A stretch of DNA of 29,635 bases, taken from NCBI GenBank assembly GCA_004335635.1, contig QAXH01006345.1, positions 1-29,635 of the forward strand, given 5' to 3'. This document shows positions 5,925-29,635 of this stretch, piece by piece. The notes beneath the pieces are model-generated. The model saw nothing but the letters and a program-made list of their open reading frames with translations. It made no database searches and was not told the DNA's origin. Positions within the stretch are counted from its first letter, which is position 1; each line of letters starts with the position of its first letter. Source of the DNA: Chloromonas sp. AAM2. Taxonomy: Eukaryota; Chlorophyta; Chlorophyceae; Chlamydomonadales; Chlamydomonadaceae. A program made the position numbers and the translations under genes.

Positions 5925-8900
5925 GGGCAACAGGCGCGATCCCAAGTTTCCTTCCTGTGCTCCTGCCCGTAGGCTGTTTGGCCAGTCTCGTGGGCTGAAC
6001 ACTGGGACAGCTACGCTGGCGCCAGCAGCAGCTGCTGTACAGGGTGATGTGGAGGGCGTAATGAGGGAGATTGATCGCGTTATTTCAAGCGATACAGCAG
6101 GCGCCAAGGAGGTCTCTGATGCAGCTGTAGCTCTAGCTTACCTGCAGGCTAAGGGCAACAGGAGGTAATTGGGGATGCTGTTTGTCATGCAGGTGCTCAG
6201 CCCAGAGCTTGGCTGATGTAGCAGGACAGCGCACAACATGCGTGGGTCCCATCCATGCAGGGCGAGGCAGCTGGCATACCTGTTTGATCATGTGGTCATC
6301 AGGAGCAATCCGTGGCTTCTTGATTGCGCGCAGATTGTGGGGCAAGGTGTTTGAGAGAGCGTCCGTGTCAACCTTTGATGCTCCCAGCTTGTCCTCATTT
6401 CTATGGGCTGCCACCACAGCCGGTGTTGGTCATTTCAAGACAGTGGCTGAGCTGTCGGGAGCAGCTGCCAAGCTGCTTCCCAGCCTGAGCCCCAGCCAGC
6501 TTTCGATTGTGGTGGAGGCGCTTGGCAGGGCAGGTGCCAAGGATGAGCAGCTGCTGGCCAGCATTGCAGACCAGGTAGGCCAAAACAGCAGCTGCTGGCA
6601 AACATGACTTAGTATTGAGCACCGTGGACACATTGCGTGGGGGGACGTGGGGAAATTTTGTGCCAGAGCTGGCGCTGTCCAGCTCGCCATGCCATTTTGC
6701 AGCATGTGTGGCAATTGCTAGTGGCTCACTAGCTGTGGCAAATGCACACAGGTGGTCGGCAACCTAGCTGCCTACAAGGCCGCCGACTTGGCGCGTCTGG
6801 TGTGGGGCTTTGCTGCTGCTGGTTCTTCAGACGTTAAGCTGGTCAAAGCTGCATCCAAGGTATGTGGCGCGTACAACGCACGCAAGTACACATATGATGC
6901 ATGACAGTGGCGCGCAGCGTACTGCTGAATCTTGGCCAGTTCAGCTGACGTGCTGCAGCAGTCCAAGCCTCGGGCAGTCAAGCCCGCTTTAGTTTAGTGC
7001 ACAGGCAGTTCTTAATCTCCCCGCTACCCGTGTGGCTGCTAATAGGTGCTAGGCGATAAGGCAGCTGAGCTGAGCGGCCGGGAAGCAGCCCAGGCAGTGT
7101 GGGGACTGGCGCGTCTGCGCCGTGCCGACAAGGCAACCTTGGATGCACTGGTTCGCACTGCCAAGTGAGTTCAGGATGCTGTGAACTTCTTTGTCATCAT
7201 GCGCCACTAGAAGGAACAGGGCGGTCACGCACAACAAGGGTTTAGTCGTGTACAGCGCTGAGCTGCCACCTGACGCACCAGGCAGTGGACAGTTTCCCTT
7301 CAGCCAGCACAGTTCATTTCGTGGTCTCGCGACGGATTTGAGAGCGGGTACAAGGCACGAATTTGGCAGCGACCTACACAATCTTGCAGGCCAGAACTTG
7401 TCTTTTCTCCTCTGTCATGCAGGGGCAAGCTGGACAGCGGTGTGGATGCAGCTGGCCTGGTCTGGGCTCTGGGCTTCATTGGGTACAGGGCAGATGCTGA
7501 CACCATCAAGGTGGGCTTGCGGCACACACGCAACCATAGGGGCTGACTGACGACACGACATGCAACGTGATTGCATTCACTAGGGCAGCCGGGTATTGCA
7601 CACTGCTCACAGCTGGCAGTGGCTTGCAGCTGCCCTGGAAGGAGCACCAAAATCAGTGCATAAGCGAAGCGCACAGCCACACTGAGATGCGCCGCATGCC
7701 ACGCCATTATGGATGTGAATCACCGCCTTGCCACCCCATTTTGGTCCTGGTCAGCCATCTTTTGGTGTGCATGACACGTCCCATGCTGGCATGCCTGGTG
7801 CAAACATCTCAGGCCTGTCATCATATCATTGCGAGTGCAGGTGCTAGCGTCAACGCTCAAGGCGCACAGCAGCGAGCTGACGCCAGCACATGCTGTTGAT
7901 GCAGCCTGGGGTCTTGGCGTGCTTGGTGGCGAAAAGGTAAGCGTCCAACAGGCAATGGGCGCATGTTGGCCACTGGATGCGCCTATCATAACAACTGTTT
8001 GGCTTAATGCCTGCCTGCAGGATGCAACCACTGCTTTGTTTGGTATTGCCTCAGCTGCCATCGAGTCAGCCCCCGATTCGCTGGACCCGTACCAGGTGGC
8101 CTCGCTCTTCGAGGCATCCGCAGCGTCTGGTGTGCCATTGTCTGAGAAGGTGAGGTTGAGGGCGTGTGCTGGCGTCATTTAACAAGCAACTGCAGGAGTT
8201 GGAAAGAACTGCCAGGCAATATTCTGATGGGGCAGCAATCCTTCTCAATGACAATTGAGCTTGCTCAACTCACATCTTGTCTTCGGAAGGGCTCATTCTT
8301 GCATGCACACACTTACCTGACTTTGAGCAGGTGTCTGCCTACGCCGCCAAAATGCACGCTCTAGTTGAGGAGGGCGCTAAGGGCAAGCGCAGCGCAGGGC
8401 TGTCAGCTTTCAAGGACGATCTTGCACGAGCCACTGCACAGGCCCTGGGCGCCAGGTATGCATATGACGCTGCGCTGCATGGCTCTCAGGCCAGCACCAC
8501 TGAAAACATGTGTCGCATTCAGCATACACGTAGAGTGTGCCTTGCAATGGCGTGCTTTCCAACCCTTGACCGGTGATGTCTGGCCTCAGGTACCGGCCTG
8601 AGGTGACTGAGATGGTGAAGAGCTTTGCCGTCTTGACCGCTGCTGGTGTGCACATTGACACCGCGGTGAACATGGACCAGACCAAGGTGGCCGTCGAGGC
8701 TGTGGGCCCGCACTACCTCAGCTCCGCTGGCACGGTGAGTCTGGGTATGCGAACAGGTATTGGATACAGCGGTGATGGCACTTTGGGGTGGGGCAGGTCC
8801 AGGCAAAAAATGTGGGATGGGATTGTATGAGCTGGCATGGCAAGAGCCAGTTTCTTGCGGTTGCGTTTGTTTGTGTGTTATTATTGAAGTGCGCTCATGT

Positions 8901-9581
8901 GTGTGATCATTGGAGTGCGCTCATGTGTTGGTGTGTTCGCAGCCCCTGGGCCCTGCACTGGCACGTGCCAAGCTGTTCGAGTCCCAGGGCTACAAGCCCG
9001 TGCTGGTGACCTTCAGCGAGTGGGCAACGCTTGGGACGGCCACAGACAAGGCCAAGGCAGTCCTGGCAAAGATCAGAACAGCCGTTCCCGCCACAGCCTC
9101 TAAGGTGAGGTTTCAGATGCGTAGATTTCACAGGCCTGTCGGGTGCAGGCAGCGCATGTTGTTTGTGGGACCACACTGCCTGTCAACTGTCAGCCCCACA
9201 CATGATCCGTCTGTCAACTGTTACCTCAGCAATGGCATATTTTAACGGCTGGCTACTAGTTTCATGTATCCATCATGTCTTCAGCTGTGGTCGGACTCAG
9301 CCACCAACGTAAAGCATCCTGTCCTGACCTATTTCGAACTTTGGAGACCACCATGTTAACAGCCCGTACACTTCCACTGTACTATTTTCCTTCCCCTCTT
9401 GCCCCTGCTGAGCAGTCCTCCCCGGACTGAAGGCCATGTATACAACAACAACAACAACAACATTCCACTGTGGGTGTAGATGCTCGTCATTTGCTGACGA
9501 CTCTTTTTCATCTTGCCCTGCTTGCAGGTGGATGCTTTGCAAAAGAAGCTGAACGAGCCATTTGATCCCTATGCGCAATGA
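5923..9581 (+). CDS. RAP-domain helical-repeat protein, probable organelle RNA factor
   Basis: Model: join(5923..6164, 6334..6574, 6752..6859, 7046..7164, 7423..7510, 7841..7936, 8021..8149, 8331..8455, 8590..8734, 8943..9104, 9528..9581), 502 aa, with all junctions GT-AG and in phase. The N-terminal 45 residues are Arg/Ala/Ser-rich with few acids, as in a transit peptide. Residues about 80-340 are degenerate helical repeats with an ALxWG-like core (ARLVWGFAAAG, AQAVWGLARL, GLVWALGFIG, VDAAWGLGVLG), as in OPR/FASTK-type proteins. The C-terminus (about 400-475) is a RAP domain: GVHIDTAVN, VAVEAVGPHYLSS, ARAKLFESQGYKPVLVTFSEW. RAP proteins act in chloroplast and mitochondrial RNA processing and translation; the particular target cannot be read from sequence. 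The start is the least certain part: the frame stays open upstream of 5923, and another ATG lies at 6061. Confidence 0.88.
9442..9462. repeat. ACA trinucleotide microsatellite
   Basis: Seven ACA units inside the last intron (9105-9527) of the RAP gene. Confidence 0.9.
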
Positions 9582-14896: not shown

Positions 14897-17800
14897 CATT
14901 CGCAATGCTGTTTATTTGCAATGCTGTTGTTGTAGTGCTCTGGGTCCACTGTGCCCACAGTAGTCTTGTTGATCCGGATGATATGAAACCCTGCCGCATG
15001 GAGGCAGCCTCATCACATGGCACACGTAAGCTCAGGCAGCTGACTTTTCATGTGTGTCCCACGTGCCATGTGCAGGTATGAAAAGACGCAGAAGGTAAGG
15101 AAGCGTGCGGCTGCAGAGGTTGGGATCATGCCTGCCTCTGATCTCCGCCCGCACCAGCTGTTGACTCATCCTGTAATTCTGATATTAATGGTGCCCACGA
15201 TTCCCATTCACTATAAGCTTCCATGGTTTCTGTCCTCTGCAATGAACCGTTTGGTACCCGCTGTTGGAGGGTTGATGGCTAATAGGCAGGCTGGGCGGTG
15301 ATAGCTCTCACACTGTTTGGGAGGACAGCTCGCTGAGGAGTAAGCAGGTTAGACCGTGATGGTACCCAAGTGTCTGCAATGCTACCCCTGTATATATGGT
15401 GCCATATTTGATCACTGTTCATGCAGTACTCTCCCCACCATGACTACTTCTCCTTTGATGCAGCAAATGATAACGGAGGCAACAGGTAAGCCAGGTGGCA
15501 GCAGCAAAGATCCGATCGTGGTTCAGGGCATCCAGCAGGTTACTGACTCAGCAGGTTGGCCGCAGGGTTTAGGCAGGGTTTGGATACAGGTGGCGCGTGC
15601 CAGACATCCTGAGGCACCTGCAGATATGCAGTGGCCCAGACTGTGTTTGATTGAGTATGTTAGTCATCAAGCTTAGTCCCGGCCTAGCAACTCGTGTCAT
15701 TGCTCCCGCTGCTGCAGGCTGGTCACTGTGCTGATGTACTTGGCGGATGTGGAGGAAGGAGGGGAGACAGTCTTCCCAAAGGTCAAGGCACCCCCTGAGC
15801 AGACAAGGGAGGCAGGCTACTCTGAGTGCGCCATGCAGGGGCTGGCATACAAGCCACGCAAGGGAGATGGTGCGTTGGGCTGGGGCGGAAGGGTGAGGAC
15901 GTAACCTGCATGCACTTTGTGGTGTGCCATGGCAGGCAATGCAAGCAATGCACGAGCAGACCAGGTGGTGCTGGCGTTTGAGAGCAACCGACTGACATGG
16001 GATGAATGGCAGTGGTCTGTGAATTATGCGACCAAAGAGATGGCTGTTGAAAGGACGTTTCTAGTCTGTGTGACTCACATGCCTTTGGTCTTCTCAACAC
16101 TCTCTGAGCTGCTGTCCTCCATGCTGCTGCTCTGCAGCCATCGCATTCTGGAGCATCAACAACGATGGGCGGTTTGAACCCAAGAGCCTTCACGGCAGCT
16201 GCCCAGTCATCAAGGTACGCTCTTGGGTGTATGAAGTTGTTTTGCGTGTTGTTTCTATTGTGTACTACATGAGTAAGCGCCTTAGGTACATCAAGTTGCT
16301 CGCCGTACTGTACTGCATGCCACAGACAAGAGGACCAGACTGTTTTGAAATATGATGACTGATGTAGAACTGAATGCAGCTGGCACCACCTGTAAGCAAC
16401 AAGACCTCAAGCTAATTTCTGGCATCTGAGCTGAAGCACTCGGGTGAAGGTAGAGCAGCGAAGCTGAGAGACTGCTGGCCTAGAAGCCGGGTTGTGTGAA
16501 CAAAGCAGTGGGTCTGAGAAAAGGCCGCCTTCCAGTTTTCGATGCCAATGCCACGCGGTTTCGCTTTAACTACTAGTCACGCTCAGCATCTGTTATGTCA
16601 TGCCAGCCTCTGGCTGCAGATTGCTGCAATACCACTCCTCATCAAGATATGGTGTGGCGTCACATGTGCTGTGCCGTCACGCATACAGGGCGAGAAATGG
16701 AGTGCAACCAAGTGGATTCATTTAGGGCGGTACGCCATGGGGGCCGAGAGGCCGCAGAAGGTGGTGCGTGTCATCTACGTGCCGCCCCCTCCACCCGCAG
16801 TCCCGGGATGCATCGACAAGCATGTGCTGTGAGTAGCATGTGCTGCGGAGTGGCATGTTGTTTACTGGACATGGGCTCTGAAAATGGACTGACTATTGCA
16901 CGTTCAATCAACCTATGTGACATGGGTCTGGTACCGGGGCGATTTCTTAACAGCTTGCCTGTCATTTAACAGTCAATAGGTGTCAGGGACTACTGCACAA
17001 GCCACGTTGGTTCTGGTTCATAGTTCGTCGCGGTTGAGACTGGATGCGTTGAGACTGGATGCGTTGAGACTGGATGCGGCATGCAGTGGCCATGGCTGCA
17101 TAGCGTTTGCTTTGAGGACTTGCAAGCTATGCGGCCATGGGTTGAACTACTTTGTGCATGTGTTGCATTGTCTGCTGCTATGCGCAGTTGCAGTCACTGG
17201 GCAGAGGCTGGCGAGTGCGAGTCGAACCCCGGCTTCATGGTCGGCAGGAAGGGCCAACCAGGTGAGCTCATGGGGCCAGACACTGCCACATGGCTGAAGC
17301 GCTAGTCACTGCCTGACCGTTGTGAAGCTGATCAATTGCAGGCAAAGCATGCATAACAAAACAAGAGAAACGCGGCTGGCCACTTTGTTCTGTCTTTGCA
17401 AATCGTCACAAAACACATAACATGTAAACAGGTTGCGTCGGAAGTATCGTTTAGTGCACTTAGTAATGAAGATGTATGGGCGCCTACTGTGCCAGGCACG
17501 CCCATTGGCTGCTGATCAAGTGTTTTCCAACTGTGCGGTCCGGTGGTTGCTCAGTCAACTTGCCAACTCCGCAACATGTAATTGCTTGCCCATGGTGGGG
17601 TCTGCCTCGTGTTGATGTTTTTGAGATGGCAGCGAGGCTTTGCTTGCCAGCAACAGGGCACATTTCCACGGGGTTGAGATTGAGTGATCTCTCATACTGC
17701 ATCCATTTTGGCCATGCCGTGCCTCACAGCTGTGCTGTTGTGCGTCTGCAGTTACAGTCACTGCTGTGCAGATTTAACCAACACGCCTTTGATTGTCTGC

Positions 17801-18404: not shown

Positions 18405-18541
18405 TGTTTACAAGGAGGGAGTGCACACCACGAAGCACGTCCAACGCAAATAACAACTACTTGCGCAAATTGCAAAAATTACTCCTAGTAAAGGGGAATC
18501 TGACCGTGTCAGCAAGGGGTGGTGAGGCCCTTGTGGCCATC
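18405..18541 (+). repeat. Left inverted repeat of the element
   Basis: 137 bp, complementary to 19590-19726 with only scattered mismatches (for example ACCACGAAGC against ACCATGAAGC). Confidence 0.9.
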
Positions 18542-18555
18542 ACCCCACAGAATGC

Positions 18556-19385: not shown

Positions 19386-19589
19386 GCAGGGCACGATTGT
19401 ACAAGCTGTCCTTAAATGGGCCATGAAGTAACGTCATATGGCAAAAAATGCCGCTTACATGACTGGAATTCGCTATCAACAGTTGACATTGTGAGGGTTG
19501 CCATTGCACTAGCTCTAACACTGACCTTGACCCTGACAATCTTTCAATCCAGTCCATTTATATGGCTAACGGGATGCTTTCGGATGGGG

Positions 19590-19726
19590 GATGGCCACAA
19601 GGGCCTCACCACCCCTTGCTGACACGGTCAGATTCCCCTTTACTAGGAGTAATTTTTGCAATTTGCGCAAGTAGTTGTTATTTGCGTTGGACGTGCTTCA
19701 TGGTGTGCACTCCCTCCTTGTAAACA
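19590..19726 (-). repeat. Right inverted repeat of the element
   Basis: Reverse complement of 18405-18541, same length. Confidence 0.9.
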
Positions 19727-20775: not shown

Positions 20776-23700
20776 ATGGCAACCATTCTGCGCGCAATGA
20801 GCACCTCGGTCCTGTTATCTCTTGTTTTCTTTGCCGGGACAGTGACCAGCCAGCAGACCTGGCCATTGCTAGGGCAAGGGCTGCCACCCCCTGGGCGCAC
20901 TGTCGTGCTCGTTGACACATTCATTGACGCGCTCGAGTCCATCAATAGCAACACGAACTCTTGGACTGGGCACGGTGAGCTGCAGCCCGCACGGGTTGTA
21001 ACCCGCATATCAGTTTTGATTATGTTGGCAAATATACTGCAGGATTACCGAACTCCTTTCCTTGCTGCTGCAGTCTGGTTCCACCTGCAGTGGAATGACA
21101 CCAGGGCGCCGGACATCATCACAAATGCCACTGCCAATTGGGTCAGCAGCGGCACATGCAACAGACCTTGCGATTGGACCAACCATGCGAGCGGGGGCTG
21201 CTGCGATGGCGTGTTCCTTCCACACCTGGAAATTCCGAACTTAATCGCTATCAATCAGGTGAGCTGCAAAAAGACGGTGTTAACTAGCACATACTGCTCT
21301 GACCACCTGCCCTGCTGACCTTGATGTTGACTTGTGGATGCACTTTGGAATGTTAAAAAACTTGATCACGCAGTTGTTGCAGCACTCTTATACACACTTG
21401 TATACGCTCTGCTGGTGTTTCATGCATCTAGAAAACACTCAAGCCACTGTCCTGCTTTGAGAAGTCTTGATTTGGAAATCGTTTGCAGGAGATGGTCTAC
21501 ACGTTCAGGATATGGACCAAAGCCGATAAAAGCGGCGTCATGCAGTGGAGTGCCAGAATCTCTGCGGACTTTCATTCTCCATTTGACTTCAGGGCTTGGC
21601 CTTTTGAGCATGTGGGTAGGCACAGGCCTGCACTTCATGACCTACACAGCCAGATCATGGCAATCAATCAGCAATTCACCTGCTTGATATGCAGCGCTTG
21701 CCATCGTACGCACGGGTTTCGCGTGCATATGGCGGATGCAGCAAGACGGCAGGTGCCAAAGAACAGCAAGAAGCCACAGCAGCTTGTCGGAAAGCATGTT
21801 GAGTAAGCATGACAATTTCTGTATTCGCCCAGAGTGTATGATTCCGGGTCTGTACGTTGCTCACACACTGGCAGCAACACACTGTGCAAAGAGAGTTTGC
21901 ATGCTTCATTCACTTGATGCTTTGGCTCGTGTGCTTGCGCCCGTGCAGCAACATCTTTTGGTGGAGCTTCAAATCCCTCCCTCCATTGCTGACCGGGTGG
22001 CCCTTGGCGGTGGTGATTCATTGCACCTTCAGAACACGCCACACACCAAGGGTGCGGCTCGAACTGTGATGTCAAGTCAGCTGGCACCCATGTTCTGGCA
22101 TGGCAATTGTGCACAGTTCCATGGGTATGCCGCAGCTGCCGCACCTGACCACATCGTACATGTATAGCCACAAGCGCCCAGTCTGAGTACGTGTTTAGCA
22201 GTGTCTGGTTTGGAATTGGCTGATCATGCGAACGAGCTCTAGCTTTTAGCTTGAAGGCAACTCAGCTATGCAACATATTCCAGAAGTCAGCTGAGTCGTC
22301 CTGCAAACGGAAGGCCTTGTTATCGCAGCATTGTTCCAATCCAAGCATGTTGCCAGGCCAGATGCGGATTGTGCACAAGGACACGTACGCACAGGGATCC
22401 ATAGCAAAGCTCTGCACCCGCTATACAGGCCCCATCGTTCCTGGGTGGAATCTTGCAAAGGTGACCAAACGCGTCTTTGACTACTCCGCATGTTACAACG
22501 CTTCCAAGTCCAACACCTCAGTATACAACATCACGGGCGAAGAGGTGCGTGCATAGCCATCAACTTTTCATGCAACCAGCTGAGGTAACGGATTGCATCC
22601 ATTGCATATGGCTAGCGAGCACCTTACGCGTCAACGTTCTCCTTTCGCTGGTTCTCTACTTGTGGCTTGACCTGGTTGAAGAGACAAAGGTCCGGTCGCG
22701 CTGCCCCTCCTTCAGACGTGAATGACAATGTGGTAGCATTTTCAACACCAGCCGGTGGCTACATCAATCGGTATCATCTGCCGCATTGCACTGCCTATCG
22801 ATGATCTGTTGGTGTGCAGGTGGCAATGGAAAAACTCTCATTTGATGGATGGGCGCAATCAAGTCAGCCAAATCCAGAAGGCGCTGAGGTCACAAGCGTT
22901 CGCTTGGAAGACTGCCAGGCGAGTGGCGCATCGGCATTCTTGAACCCTCACGGTACATGGAGAGTAACCCTGGCTACTTGAATACCATGGCGTGTGCTCA
23001 TCCAATACTAACTTGACTGACGTTCTGAACCAGTGCTTCAGTGACTGACTCAACGTGGTGTGTTTGCTACCTGACTTCAGTTCCTGAGAAACGGAGGGGC
23101 AACTGCTGAAGATTTGTCGCAGTATGGCCCAAGATACATGCTCGTAGATACAATGGTAAGCATCATACTGCTGCCTCTCTTCAGCCTTACCCTCCAGCGG
23201 CGAGCAGCGAGGATGCATGCCATTTTACATCTGGAATCACTGTATTTGTTTGTTCGTCCAGGTCACTATCTGTAATGAGTGAGAGGAGCAAGTGGCTCAG
23301 TCATGCTGCAGTTGCGCCACGTGCATGGTGTTTGTTCTGCCCTGCAGGTAAAGCGAATTGAAGGTTACTACGTCATGGCCAACATCGTTCCCCTGCTCCT
23401 GCTGACCTACATGGTGTTTGTTACGTACGCCATGGAGCGCAGCGACCTGGAAGCACGCATGGCGAGTATCAGGCCATGGGGTGCCTGGAGTGGATGCTTT
23501 TGTCAGTGAGAGGGAAGCACATGGCGTTGCCAAACAAGTGAAGCAGTGAGATCGTCAGGCTCAAGCTGTGGCCTGTGTGTGGGACAGCCCACGCAAGCAG
23601 TAGCACAGTAATGCATGAAACACACGCCTGTGATTATGTTTGTGATAGCACACCCAAAGGCTGTCAGGCGGCGAAACCCGCCGACATGCCGCAAACTTGT

Positions 23701-26700
23701 TTACGGCATGTGCAGCAAGGTGGTTGTACTTTGTGTGTTTGCAGGGTGTGGTCGTGACGCTGGTTCTCTCTATCAGCGCCCTCCAGTGAGTATGCATACT
23801 GCTGAGACTCAAACCTTGGCCAGACCTTGTTCCTGAAGTGGCTGCATTCGTTTGCTCACAGATGCACTTACCGGCACCTTATGCTCTTGCTCTTGCCTCT
23901 GGTGTGCTCCTGCAGGTTCACATGGGATTTCCCTCCAGCTAGCTACCTGAATGCAGTGCAGCAGGTGAGCATGCGGCACACTGTCCTGGCCCAGCTATTA
24001 TTGTTCTACTTAAGGTCTACAACAGACATCGCGCATCTACTGTAGCTGTGTACATGCGAGTCCCTTGTACCTTTTCCATTCTGTGTGCAGATCACGCTCA
24101 TGGCTTACGGGATCTTCTTTCTGGTCTCTATTGAGTCCATGATTGCGTCGCACATCTGCCGACTGCACATGCACCGGCGCCAGAATCAGATGCTGCATGA
24201 CGCCGTGGCCGCACAACGCTTCAACTCTGCGCCATCCTACATGCCAAGTGATGCGTGAGTCACACGGACTTTGGCTTTTTATGCGAAATCAGTAGAATTT
24301 GCCACAGACGTGAGCGGTCGCACGCTCTGCAGCCAAACGCTCTTGGTCAAAAGTCAGCTTTCACGGCTGCCGGCAATCGTTGCAGACAGAAGTGTAGCAA
24401 CGCCTATGCTCGTACCTTGATCATCCATCGCTGTTGACTTCTGCGTGCGCGGCACCCGCACATGCACTGTGTACTGTTCCGATACACGGTCTTTCGTCTC
24501 TGTATGTGTAGTTGTGCTTGCAATCCACTTCTGTCACCTTGTCACTCGTGCCTTGTTTATGATGTGCTGATGGGAATGGATTGAAGTTCTGTGTTTCGGC
24601 CCCTGACTTGCAGAGGCTCAATGTCAGCTGTGGCGCGCGGCATGCCAAGCACCTGGGCGGGACCCCTCGTGACTGATCGGTCCGGGGAGCTGCCCGCCAA
24701 GGTCGGCCGCACGGAGACAGATAGCGCATCCTCACTGCAACAACGCACGAGGTGGGTGTGCGAGGAGCCGAGTAGGCGGGCTTCAACATGAGGCCACTGT
24801 CAGGTTTGCATGTCCAGTACTTACCCGAATACGGCAGGCATCCCGTTGCTTGCGTTGACCTGCCTGTCTGCCATACCTTCTTCTGCAAGACCTTGTGCTT
24901 GTCACAAAGTTTGCCGTGCTCCACCCTTTGTCGTGTTGTGCGCGCCCCGGCCTTGCAGTGCCAGCGGCGCCACCAAGGGCCCACTTATCCGGGATTCCAC
25001 CCTTCCTCGACCCGCTCTGCCAAACTCAGAACGCATCGCGGCAAGCTCAAGGCAGAGCTCTGGGCCAGTGGCCGAGGGGCTTTGCTTCCGTGGACATGTA
25101 CCTGGCCGACAGGAGAGTGCGGCCTCTGATGAGTTCCTAGACGACGTTGAAGACCCTGGCAATGAGCGAGCGAGCCGCCAGTCCGTGGGCGCGAGGAGCA
25201 GCGGCAGTGGCGTGTGCAAGCCATCCATGCTTACCGTTCCTGAAGCAGCAGAGGTGAGAATAGACTGGGAACGCGCATGAGGGCCGAAACTGTGAGTTGA
25301 CTGATTGCTGCAAAGATTATCTGTTAGCGGATTGTGTCGGATGCGCATCACAGATGTAGGAACGGGTTTTGATAACTCCTGAGTCGATCAGCGAGCACTG
25401 TGATGGATCCATCGATGCGTCTCAGCTTTTGAAGGGCATGTAGCAGACTTGTCAGGCAAAGCTGAGAGTTCAATGCTCGGCGCCTGCGTGACTGCCATGT
25501 TGTTGTGGCTCCAACATGCATGCAGCATAGCGGAAGCTCAAGAGCAGTATTCTTTTCCATACTTGACCTGTCCAGCCAGCACCACATTTCCATTACAGGT
25601 CTGTTGCAGGTGTTGCTAACATGTGCTGCAAGCGAAGGCGGATTGTTGCAAACTACTGCTGCAGGGTGCCAACTCTCAGCGCCCTCAACTGCGCTCCCAG
25701 AAGACAGGGGCCTCCTTGATGCCTGCTAACTTTAACCTGAGCAGGTGAGGGCATTGTATTCCTTCTGTAAACGTGTTGACGTGCGTGTTAGAGCAGAAAT
25801 ATTCACGAGCGCAAACGCTAGTAAGTCATGCAGTGGGTGAGGCTTATTACGATTCTGACAAACCCAAGCAATCGTTCAGGGGTTAGTCGAAGCGCTGGAA
25901 GGCCCCAAGACAGCGCCTGGGCAGTGTATTCCTTCTGTAAACGTGCTGACGTGCGTATTAGAGCAGAAATATCCACGAGCGCAATCGCTAGCAAGTCATG
26001 CACCGGGCGAGGCTTATTACGATCCTGACAAACCCAAGCAATCGTTCAGGGGTTAGTCGAAGCGCTGGAAGGCCCCAAGACAGCGCCTGACAGTTTAGCC
26101 TGCAGTTAATGGTGCAAGTCTTAAACATATGAGAAGTGACAAGGCAGTTCACCAGGGGCCGTGCACTACGCCTGGGTTACATCTACGCAATGTCACAAGT
26201 AATGTGCACAATGGGTAATACCCACTGTGCAAGCCTCGTGCTTCCTCAGTAGTGGGCAGTGGCCAGGATCCCGTGATCAATCAGGATCAGCAAGCTATCC
26301 TGCCGTGCATCCTATTGTCCAGGCTGATGATGAACATGCACACATCACCATCGTGCCCTGCAGGGCCATGAGCATAAGCGTTGGCGCCATGGCCAAGCAG
26401 ACCAAGGCATTCCAGCAGCGTATTGATAAGGACGAGGCATATGCTCTGCTGGTGAGCATGCTACATGCAAGCATGCCCTGTGCGCATGACTGCGTGGATT
26501 AGCTTTGCACTTGCATGAGCACCCTCAACTATTCTTGTTGCAGCAAGCACTGGTGCAAGCCTTTGCCTGGGCCTGTGGATGGTCAATAATTTCCAGGTGC
26601 CAGTGCCTGTTTTCACTTCATCTGCTATGCGCCTGCCCTTGCATAGCTCTTGTCCTGTTGCTTGCGCCTGCTCGCACAGCTCTTGTCCTGTTGCTTGCGC

Positions 26701-27304
26701 CTGCTCGCACAGCTCTTGTCCTGTTGCTTGCGCCTGCTCGCACAGCTCTTGTCCTGTTGCTTGCGCCTGCTCGCACAGCTCTTGTCCTGTTGCTTGCGCC
26801 TGCTCGCACAGCTCTTGTCCTGTGCTCTATGTTTGCTCCTCGTTCCCTGTTCCGCTTCATTGGCTTCGTCTGACATTCCTGTCGTTGGCTGCTGATGATG
26901 CACAGTTCGCTCGCCGCATGGACATCATCTTCTGCTGGTTCATGCTGGTGTCGTTTACGATCATTGTCATCGTTCTCCTGTACGTCAACGGCCAGGTGAG
27001 TGCAGCAAAGACATTGCGGCAGGCCAAGTTGCTCTCTCCTCATGGCAGGGCAGAAAACGCACCATCATCGCTCGTGCATCACACATCTTGCATTCCAATC
27101 AACAGTTGTGTATCACACGAGGTCTCTGTCCTAGTGCATCACACATCTGTATTGGCATTTGATCAGGTTGCTTTCTTGCATGCCAGCATGTGTTGCAGGC
27201 ATGGATGTGCTTGTTTGGCAGTCATTGGATTTGACTTCTGATATGTGCAGGTCGGAGACCACAAGATGATGCTCATCGGAGCCACAGCTCCGGCCAACAT
27301 GTAA
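20776..27304 (+). CDS. Pentameric ligand-gated ion channel homologue
   Basis: Model: join(20776..21258, 21489..21611, 21949..21996, 22329..22544, 22820..22963, 23081..23155, 23348..23461, 23745..23785, 23916..23964, 24091..24254, 24614..24751, 24959..25253, 25665..25744, 26364..26451, 26906..26995, 27251..27304), 2202 nt, 733 aa, in phase. Residues 1-26 are a signal peptide. The ligand-binding domain has the W-x-D-x-R motif (QWNDTR, W106-R110) and the core loop SPFDFRAWPFEHQHL (191-205), which has no Cys pair. TM1 is about 371-393 (YVMANIVPLLLLTYMVFV). TM2 starts EARMGVVVTLVLS (398-410). The TM2-TM3 loop is FPPASYLNAVQQ. TM3 is about 432-454, followed by a cytoplasmic loop of about 230 Ser/Arg-rich residues. 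TM4 is about 691-713 and the tail has 17 residues. The family forms pentameric cation or anion channels; the ligand is unknown. One intron (23462-23744) is GC-AG. Residues 67-89 may hide an unresolved small intron. Confidence 0.88.
25749..26088. repeat. 170-bp tandem duplication in a channel intron
   Basis: Copies are 25749-25918 and 25919-26088, aligned without gaps with about ten differences. It lies in the intron 25745-26363 within the region coding the cytoplasmic loop. Confidence 0.92.
26645..26823. repeat. 33-bp minisatellite, 5.4 perfect copies
   Basis: The unit begins AGCTCTTGTCCTGTTGCTTG and ends CGCCTGCTCGCAC. Five full copies and 14 bases of a sixth lie in the intron 26452-26905. 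As 33 is a multiple of three, frames stay open on both strands and give false repeat-protein ORFs. Confidence 0.95.
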
Positions 27305-28532
27305 CCTGCACCACGCACCTGCACGGACTTGCCATATGAATATGCATGTGTAGTAGCATGACTGTACCAACTGAGATAAGGATGCTCGTGACCCTGTGGT
27401 CCAGCGATCAATGGTGTGTGATCAAGAGCACATGACGACAGCCGTGTTGGTGGCAAGTTCATGTTCATTTCGAAGTAGTGGCGCACTACAGTGTGAGTGT
27501 GAATCATATACATTGGTGTGATGTCTGGGTGAAACGTGAGAGAGAAAGGGACAGAGAAAGGTGTTGGGTCTTGGTTGATGGGCAATTAAGCGTCGAGGAG
27601 CCTCTCCGGGAGAAGGTCGATCATGTCCCGGTGATCAAGGAATTCACAGTGAGCCAGGGAGAGTGATCCAGACTACACGTGATGAAAACCGTGCGTTTGC
27701 TGGGGACTAGCTAGTATTCAGTTGATGTTCATTTCCATGGCTACATGTAGCTGCAGTTGAGGTGGTCATACTCTTGAGGCATCACCGGACGTCAAGTGCT
27801 TGGCACGAAAAGACTAAACCACGATGCTACTTCTGGGTGACTGCAGCTCGTCATAAGCAATGCCTGCTGCTTTCGAGCTCGATTCCAGCGGCAGGCTAGA
27901 TTTCACTCATGCCGCACCTCAAGTTCTTGTCAGTTACAGCTATTAACTTGACTCGCGTTTTGATGTTTTTATAAACCCTTTGCTGTGCAGCAGGTTGATT
28001 GAAGGCATGATAGCTCATAGCCTAGCCTCGGCTGTGCGTGCCCTCTGGTTTCCAGCTGTGCAGCTGTGCAGGGTGTGTGACCCAGGTGATGCGCACGGCT
28101 GCTGTGCCTCTGTCTTGATAATCACTGTGCAAACACTGCGCTTTTCTTCTGCAGTGGCAAACCCAAGCAAAAGCTGCTTTTGTCAATGTGAGTAGTCAAG
28201 CCCACCAGGTGAAGATTTCGAACCAAGAGTTCCAGTTGTGTTGTCACGTCGACTGTCGAGTCGTCTGGCGGCTGCTGTGATTTTCAACTCATTTTTACTC
28301 GTAAAGTGACAGTTTCATATTTTATGGGGGAGCAACAAGGCAGGTTGCGGATGCATGGCGTCAGGCATCGGAGACACATGCAGGATGAGGTCGTGCGCAC
28401 CTTAGTCACGTGCTGCAGCTCTTGTTGGTCCCTTTTTCAGTTTGTACTGCTGCACTTGCAGCTTCCAGACGGTTGTGTTGTGCAGGTATGCAATTTGTTT
28501 TCATAACGCCTTTGTTGGTGAGCTTGATGGCA
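27305..28532. other. Intergenic after the channel gene
   Basis: No gene is supported. It holds a purine-rich GAGAGAGAAAGGGACAGAG tract near 27538 and a TTTTTATAAACCC (about 27966-27978) that could be a TATA box for the ORF that ends at 28906. Confidence 0.45.
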
Positions 28533-28906: not shown

Positions 28907-29000
28907 TCAGCTGATTGCTACCACGAACGTGAACGAGTAGACTGCACAAGGTTCTGAGACCAGGGGGCACGTGGAAGCCCGGGGGCATGTCAGGTCGTAC

Positions 29001-29635
29001 CTGCGCAACTGCTGATGGGTTGAACGATGCGTCACAGACCTCAATAGCAAGGTGTGTTTGGGAAATCGAGCTTTGGTTGGCAGCAGCACTCAGCTGTGCC
29101 CATGACGAGGGTTGCAGGGGCTGCAGGGACACCTGAGGCACTGGGGCATGACACAAGTGAGTCGCCTTATCTCCTGGAAATCTCTGACACCCAACAGTCA
29201 ACTCACAACATTAATTGCCCAACCAATCCGTGCATCCCTCATTGGCTTGTAGGTCTTGCAATTACTGACATGCTGGCCATAACCAGGTATGAAGGCGTGG
29301 AAGCAAGATATTACTGTGCCAGAGCTGCACTTGCATGTGCAGGTCTTGCAGGGGCCTCACCTGCTGCATGTCTTCGCTGACGCTGTACACGGACGTTGCA
29401 TTGGTGGAGTTGAAGCATGCGCTGCTGTCGTACACACGCCGGGTCACCTGGGACGTGTACCAGCCAGGCACTGGATCTCCTGATGAGGGCAAGGCATGCA
29501 GCAAACAGAGTGTGTGTTTGTGCTTGAACGCCCAAATGCTTCATGGTGTGGTGCAACTCAACGGCAAGGGTTGCGACCTGGACTTATGTTGTCAGGCCAT
29601 CCGACCCTGCCGCCCTGCTCCGGCATTCAAAAGCC
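29001..29635 (-). pseudogene. Partial second channel copy, extracellular part only
   Basis: Two minus-strand exons match the channel at 20776-27304. The exon ending at 29361 (donor at 29360-29359) encodes DPVPGWYTSQVTRRVYDSSA and continues CFNSTNATSVYSVSEDMQQ. It aligns with IVPGWNLAKVTKRVFDYSAC and NTSVYNITGEE of the complete gene (exon 22329-22544). The next exon, 29132-29001, encodes 44 residues (VSLQPLQPSSWAQLS to SFNPSAVAQ) and aligns with exon 22820-22963. Both introns are at matching positions and phase 0. Below 29001 I find no exon for TM1-TM4 on this strand, so the copy looks cut before the pore. The upstream part lies beyond the window. It could also be a soluble ligand-binding-domain gene or an assembly break. 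Confidence 0.6.

Follow-up and report, generated by a model that had tools for sequence, protein, structure and literature searches.

The window, by which we mean the whole analysed stretch of 29,635 nucleotides from the green alga Chloromonas sp. AAM2 (contig QAXH01006345.1), carries on its plus strand a gene of 17 exons that runs from the ATG at 20776 to the stop at 27302-27304, and whose product is very probably a subunit of a pentameric ligand-gated ion channel (pLGIC), likely opening an ion pore upon a signal from outside, which is the best explanation of the evidence taken as a whole. The gene is real and complete and stands under constraint. Its 670 codons are open without an internal stop, and 14 of its 16 introns are GT-AG, the other two (introns 6 and 8) being GC-AG, a type that many eukaryotes splice. 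A full second copy with 17 matching exons lies on contig C87 of the same assembly (the paralogue); it shares the GC-AG borders of intron 6, those of intron 8 being found in the window copy only. A first gene model of 709 residues was dropped, since comparison with the paralogue and relatives moved the acceptor of exon 5 downstream and the donor of exon 6 upstream, to a GC. The exons are as follows.

20776-20974, plus: exon 1, signal peptide (residues 1-25), then the first part of the extracellular domain; 196 nt in the paralogue
21074-21258, plus: exon 2, W68, W73-N-D75-T-R77, the four-cysteine cluster C95/C99/C109/C110 and loop A (FLPHLEIPN); same length in the paralogue
21489-21611, plus: exon 3, strands preceding the Pro loop, plus SPFDFRAWPFEH; same length in the paralogue
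21949-22051, plus: exon 4, QHLL... and the start of NTPHTKG; same length in the paralogue
22429-22544, plus: exon 5, ...PGW210 (core Trp of strand 9) and C225; acceptor set by the paralogue and three relatives
22820-22918, plus: exon 6, long strand 9-10 region and C274, followed by a GC-AG intron (GC-AG in the paralogue too)
23081-23155, plus: exon 7, strand 10 running into M1
23348-23461, plus: exon 8, pre-M1 Arg303, M1 with Pro315, and E335-A336-R337-M338, the next intron being GC-AG (GT-AG in the paralogue)
23745-23785, plus: exon 9, M2 pore helix with Leu346 at 9'
23916-23964, plus: exon 10, end of M2 with Asp356 (19') and the M2-M3 loop FPPASY
24091-24254, plus: exon 11, M3, then the start of the cytoplasmic loop
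24614-24751, plus: exon 12, cytoplasmic loop
24959-25253, plus: exon 13, cytoplasmic loop
25665-25744, plus: exon 14, cytoplasmic loop
26364-26451, plus: exon 15, stretch preceding M4
26906-26995, plus: exon 16, M4
27251-27304, plus: exon 17, conserved C-terminal tail GDHKMMLIGATAPANM and stop

Two of the introns hold tandem repeats, a 170-base unit present twice in intron 14 (25749-26089) and a 33-base unit present six times in intron 15 (26623-26823).

The elements that a previous sequence-only reading had named, i.e., a signal peptide, W-x-D-x-R, a Pro-loop core and four membrane segments, could all be located in the 670-residue product. Residues 1-25 resemble a signal peptide, W73-N-D75-T-R77 is present, and the Pro-loop stretch SPFDFRAWPFEHQHL spans residues 158-172 without a flanking cysteine pair; M1, M2 and M3 lie at about 307-390 and M4 at 628-650. 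The long cytoplasmic loop announced by that reading is there as well, though with 237 residues between M3 and M4 instead of 230. Its description of a full-length pLGIC subunit devoid of the Cys-loop cysteines also holds for the 17-exon model, where the extracellular cysteines are only 95, 99, 109, 110, 225 and 274; not one lies between residues 110 and 225, so the disulphide of the animal Cys-loop is missing. The landmark residues of the superfamily follow in the expected order. The proline at the tip of the beta6-beta7 loop is P166, within a motif found in all 17 algal proteins on which features were counted here (15 relatives, the window protein and its paralogue), and in an alignment of five family members the aromatic of the beta9 core (W210), the arginine before M1 (R303), the M1 proline (P315) and the prolines of the M2-M3 loop (P358/P359) are invariant. 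Likewise, R337 at the 0' position of M2 and L346 at 9' are invariant both in this alignment and among the 15 relatives. For comparison, the portion of Jaiteh, Taly and Henin (2016; PMC4795631) available here lists for pLGICs a loop-tip proline in 100% (Table 1) and gives frequencies of 71% for the beta9 core Trp, 94% for the pre-M1 Arg, 79% for a basic residue at M2 0' and 75% for Leu at 9'. A coupling of His169/His171 to the C-terminal tail as a site for pH or metal was considered, for which the evidence speaks neither way.

Comparisons with profiles and structures lead to the same superfamily. NCBIfam LIC matches the window protein at an E value of 2e-10, and both LIC and LGIC_1 match all five proteins of the five-member alignment. 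A search of PDB sequences with the window protein alone (in its first, 709-residue model) found a GLIC/GABA-A chimera at E 1.6e-6, and the profile of the five members reached E 3.9e-9, with only pLGICs in the best 60 of 280 rows. The low-confidence predicted fold of an algal relative, P0001, matches pLGICs only among the best 50 listed. The claim of the earlier reading that the protein is closest to the bacterial GLIC proved half right, because the Pro-loop stretch favours GLIC and ELIC and the membrane part the glycine receptor. With the family profile, the score of the former is about 22 bits against outer domains of the GLIC and ELIC type, another GLIC chimera reaching 17; in the printed alignments the latter does best with the glycine receptor (20 bits), ahead of GABA-A (13-15) and ELIC (11), and other PDB rows of the same profile search, e.g., the bacterial DeCLIC, likewise match best in the membrane part. 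In the outer domain, the window protein alone scores 12 bits with GLIC and 5 with the glycine receptor.

Several observations weigh against this assignment. The profile check that the earlier reading had proposed did return both Pfam domains, so that the outcome named there as a refutation did not come about, but both lie under the curated cut-off, which is a search threshold and not a biological feature: with the window protein alone the ligand-binding domain (Neur_chan_LBD) gave E 8.2e-4 and 19.3 of 26 bits, and the membrane domain (Neur_chan_memb, spanning 313-647) E 0.21 and 12.3 of 28.1 bits. The NCBIfam cut-offs are far off, too (LIC, 40 of 280 bits; LGIC_1, 25 of 500 bits at E 9.1e-6). 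The WPFE of the Pro loop departs from the usual [F/Y]PxD by a Trp for Phe/Tyr and a rare Glu for Asp; in the part of Table 1 of Jaiteh et al. available here, the aromatic is F in 71% and Y in 25%, and the acid is D in 93% and E in 3% (PMC4795631). The predicted folds have a low mean predicted local distance difference test score (pLDDT; 49.2 and 55.7) and are monomers of relatives rather than of the window protein. The order of landmarks and the four hydrophobic segments are seen in the window protein itself, and both parts of the fold together only in the low-pLDDT AlphaFold2 model of P0001. Finally, the exon joins of the window gene are predictions from DNA. A search of the assembly with PF02931 gave zero matches, a result that is uninformative because 14 control genomes gave zero as well and introns split the gene.

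Between the window gene and its paralogue, the divergence bears the mark of purifying selection. The paralogue was found by searching the same assembly (74.4 Mb in 2324 contigs, of which only the best candidates were scored), and 12 of its 17 exons (exons 2-11, 16 and 17) equal those of the window gene in length, exons 2-11 holding most of the outer domain and M1-M3. The two proteins are identical at 513 of 656 aligned residues; by the NG86 method, nonsynonymous divergence (dN) is 0.131 and synonymous divergence (dS) 0.636, i.e., a dN/dS of about 0.2. These same 17 exons, the identity and the ratio argue that the window gene is not a chance assembly of open frames. By region, dN/dS amounts to 0.231/0.282 in the signal peptide, 0.106/0.709 in the extracellular domain, 0.057/0.380 in M1-M3 (a ratio of 0.15), 0.233/0.877 in the cytoplasmic loop, where 126 of 197 residues are identical, and 0.040/0.421 from pre-M4 to the C-terminal end. 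The lowest ratios therefore fall in the segment from pre-M4 to the end, in M1-M3 and in the outer domain, and only the signal peptide is less conserved than the cytoplasmic loop. Such a pattern is that of a protein under selection, with constraint on the outer domain, the pore and the last exons.

One could still suppose that the active channel is the one on C87 and that the window gene is a duplicate of it which is decaying or has lost its function, given that a second copy exists, that the donor of window intron 8 is GC instead of GT, and that a nearby minus-strand fragment whose pore exons were not found may point to decay within the family. We hold this to be improbable, as the 670 codons contain neither frameshift nor stop, each of the 16 introns begins with GT or GC and ends in AG, the two copies agree in the GC-AG borders of intron 6, and the dN/dS of the pair, which as a pairwise measure does not tell which copy was constrained, is about 0.2 and lowest in just the parts named above. 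It is even less probable that the protein is a non-channel receptor or binding protein that keeps the fold and signals through its 237-residue cytoplasmic loop. The length of that loop and the unusual Pro loop (E for D) would suit such a protein; yet M2 is complete, its 0' Arg and 9' Leu are invariant in both alignments, M1-M3 show a dN/dS of 0.15, and the supposed signalling loop is the least conserved region after the signal peptide. The pLGIC subunit stays the preferred reading.

The non-coding parts of the two copies were also compared. Their 16 introns align at 63-79% identity. At the 3' end, the last exon and the non-coding DNA following it (27242-27456, against 8440-8654 of locus L021 on C87) are 94.9% identical over 215 bases, far above the introns, which suggests gene conversion or a constrained 3' end. 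Further matches in the assembly (queries, the window protein, P0001 and P0002) were single weak ones on C901, C1147 and C1470, with E values of 0.04-0.4. The minus-strand fragment mentioned above, a further and diverged relative, stands tail to tail with the main gene at the end of the contig, which has 29635 bases:

29370-29534, minus: counterpart of exon 5, E 2.7e-8
28986-29141, minus: counterpart of exons 6-7 in the same fragment, E 0.002 with P0001 as query

Pore exons of this fragment were not found in the window, and a broken or truncated copy is therefore likely.

Relatives were sought in three protein searches, in each of which about 8000 candidates were scored, so that the list is incomplete. 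The first, made with the 709-residue model or part of it, returned three proteins, namely P0001 (source 'lgn') and two of Edaphochlamys debaryana; searching with one of the latter yielded 14 proteins (the query itself and P0003 included) from Edaphochlamys, Gonium pectorale, Chlamydomonas incerta, C. schloesseri, Pleodorina starrii and C. reinhardtii. Among these 14, 13 have a precomputed annotation for one or both of the pLGIC Pfam domains, and two C. reinhardtii proteins, XP_001691705.1 and XP_001691727.1, are already named 'ligand-gated ion channel'. The search with the family profile returned only two known relatives. The closest relative found outside the genome, P0001, is 43% identical to the window protein. 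Its 771 codons take up most of a contig of only 2927 bases, where many introns could hardly fit, so that its source was presumably a spliced transcript in which the outer domain and the pore are joined. In a tree of algal rows only (18 rows for the 17 proteins, the Gonium fusion P0004 being split), the window gene, its paralogue and P0001 form one clade (100/100) and the volvocine proteins another (100/100); of the 15 inner branches, 9 are left open, the bootstrap had yet to settle, and the first half of P0004 came out short (256 residues), probably owing to a false motif match. P0004 itself (1269 aa) shows two successive pLGIC subunit cores and is a fused gene model or else a genuine tandem subunit.

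Across the two clades, certain features recur. The Pro-loop pattern and NT[AP]H.KG..GW (HT in two) occur in 17 of 17 proteins, the cluster C-x3-C ... GCCD directly before loop A in 16 (P0015 lacks the N-terminal part), and the C-terminal GDH..[ML]L..P[AG]N[ML] also in 16 (the end of P0012 differs). The stretch from the core Trp to M1 holds exactly two cysteines in 16 of the 17 proteins and three in the paralogue, and two cysteine columns of this stretch are invariant among the 15 relatives. The volvocine proteins P0002-P0015 share with the window protein the Pro loop and NT[AP]H.KG..GW (HT in one of 14), the cysteine cluster (13 of 14) and the GDH tail (13 of 14), but belong to a separate clade at 26-32% identity (P0002 and P0003 compared directly), read YPFD or YPFE where the window protein, its paralogue and P0001 read WPFE, and bear G[DE]R or NDR before M2 in place of EAR. 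P0001, although of the same clade as the window protein, has an ESR triad and a longer insert before the Pro loop. GLIC and ELIC, with which the Pro-loop stretch of the algal family profile scores about 22 bits, have no Cys-loop cysteines either; nor are they known to have the large M3-M4 loop, the six extracellular cysteines or the C-terminal tail motif.

As to the possible working of the channel, we would expect from the superfamily that five identical subunits, or a mixture with the paralogue, which could co-assemble, form the channel, with the outer domains facing the medium or the lumen of an organelle and a ligand binding at the subunit interfaces. The binding signal would then pass through the Pro loop, with E168 where the superfamily has Asp, to Arg303 and the M2-M3 loop FPPASY, and on to the M2 helices, which would line the pore with Leu346 as the 9' gate. 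The earlier reading had suggested that the channel could sense a small molecule or protons. A classical amine pocket seems unlikely, because the loop B position, 13 residues after the Pro, is aromatic in none of the 17 algal proteins; we take this position to be that of the loop B Trp of nicotinic receptors. The loop D Trp (W68) is kept as an invariant column in the five-member alignment, and a script found it in 15 of the 17, P0001 being mislocated and P0015 lacking that part.

With respect to ion selectivity, the three residues that precede M2 read EAR in 2 of the 17 proteins (the window gene and its paralogue), ESR in one, G[DE]R in 13 and NDR in one; hence the cation triad GE[K/R] at -2' to 0' is absent from the window protein, which has E-A-R. 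The window channel may nonetheless lean towards cations, a step less certain than the other inferred ones, because of Glu335 at -2', Asp356 at 19' and the cation-like triad in most of the sister clade; GLIC, too, has a Glu at -2' and an acidic 19'. Animal receptors with GE[K/R] are cation-selective and those with A[R/K] anion-selective, so that E-A-R, which holds the metazoan anionic A[R/K], tells against such a leaning, and the site is generally insufficient to predict selectivity in protists, as stated in the available portion of the 2016 study (PMC4795631). An anion channel of the chloride type, as are the glycine and GABA-A receptors, is the chief alternative here: E335-A336-R337-M338-G339 aligns with P-A-R-V-G of the glycine receptor, and A[R/K] is the metazoan anion signature (same portion of PMC4795631). 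We nevertheless deem it unlikely, albeit to be taken seriously, since the window protein has Glu where both receptors have Pro at -2', as well as Asp at 19', and G[DE]R, near or equal to GE[K/R], marks 13 of the 17 algal members; the window protein further differs from these receptors in lacking the Cys-loop pair. The cation leaning of the pLGIC is therefore retained.

Besides the channel gene, the window contains, on the plus strand at about 15716-17302, pieces resembling a prolyl-4-hydroxylase (2OG-Fe(II) oxygenase, E 1.9e-9) that carries a ShK domain at its C-terminal end (E 6e-5). At about 6001-9103, again on the plus strand, lie exons for a protein rich in repeats, which matches FAST_1 weakly (E 3.5e-4, below the cut-off) and is perhaps an organelle RNA factor. 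An inverted repeat (18405-18555 and 19576-19726; 151 bases, 96% complementary, 1020 bases apart, with further repeats flanking it) looks like a small transposable element.

An algal pLGIC as such, which the sequence-only reading had presented as news, is not new: Jaiteh, Taly and Henin reported the superfamily in Chlorophyta in 2016, naming Chlamydomonas and Chlorella, and the available part of their paper adds that Cys-loop cysteines are mostly missing from protist pLGICs and that, as of 2016, a biological role was known for no pLGIC of a unicellular organism (PMC4795631). A 2024 diatom paper, in the part at hand, likewise places Cys-less pLGICs in chlorophytes and notes their absence from land plants (PMC11085791). 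As far as we have seen, this kind of gene is thus already catalogued in green algae and apparently unstudied there; at the level of titles and abstracts, nothing was found on the function of a green-algal pLGIC, which is weak evidence of absence. A possible hint at physiology comes from the accessible part of a paper on Chlamydomonas sp. (PMC11355073), where the naming is the paper's own annotation and the gene is not that of the window.

The window gene is a solid addition to a known kind of pLGIC, and the novel part lies in the features of the family. The six extracellular cysteines, the near-invariant tail and the changed charge-filter motif are, as far as we have seen, apparently undescribed, and neither the cysteine cluster nor the C-terminal tail is mentioned in the available portion of the 2016 study (PMC4795631). 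Taken jointly, these features lead us to a tentative idea, which we rate as possible rather than probable, that the green-algal pLGICs may form a distinct architectural class, in which six extracellular cysteines of their own (four before loop A and two in the strand 9-10 loop) would replace the Cys-loop disulphide, the near-invariant extracellular tail GDHxxML..P[AG]NM would act as a fixed coupling piece, and the lineage of the window gene would have moved the acidic filter ring from -1' (G[DE]R) to -2' (EAR), with a selectivity other than that of its volvocine cousins. The same portion of Jaiteh et al. (PMC4795631) argues that receptors without the Cys-loop pair must rely on another mechanism, should folding require that pair, and the six conserved cysteines offer a concrete candidate for the stabilisation of the fold in a eukaryotic Cys-less receptor. 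Moreover, a pair of genes with clean models, kin to annotated genes of Chlamydomonas, makes it testable what role channels of the nerve type play in organisms without nerves.
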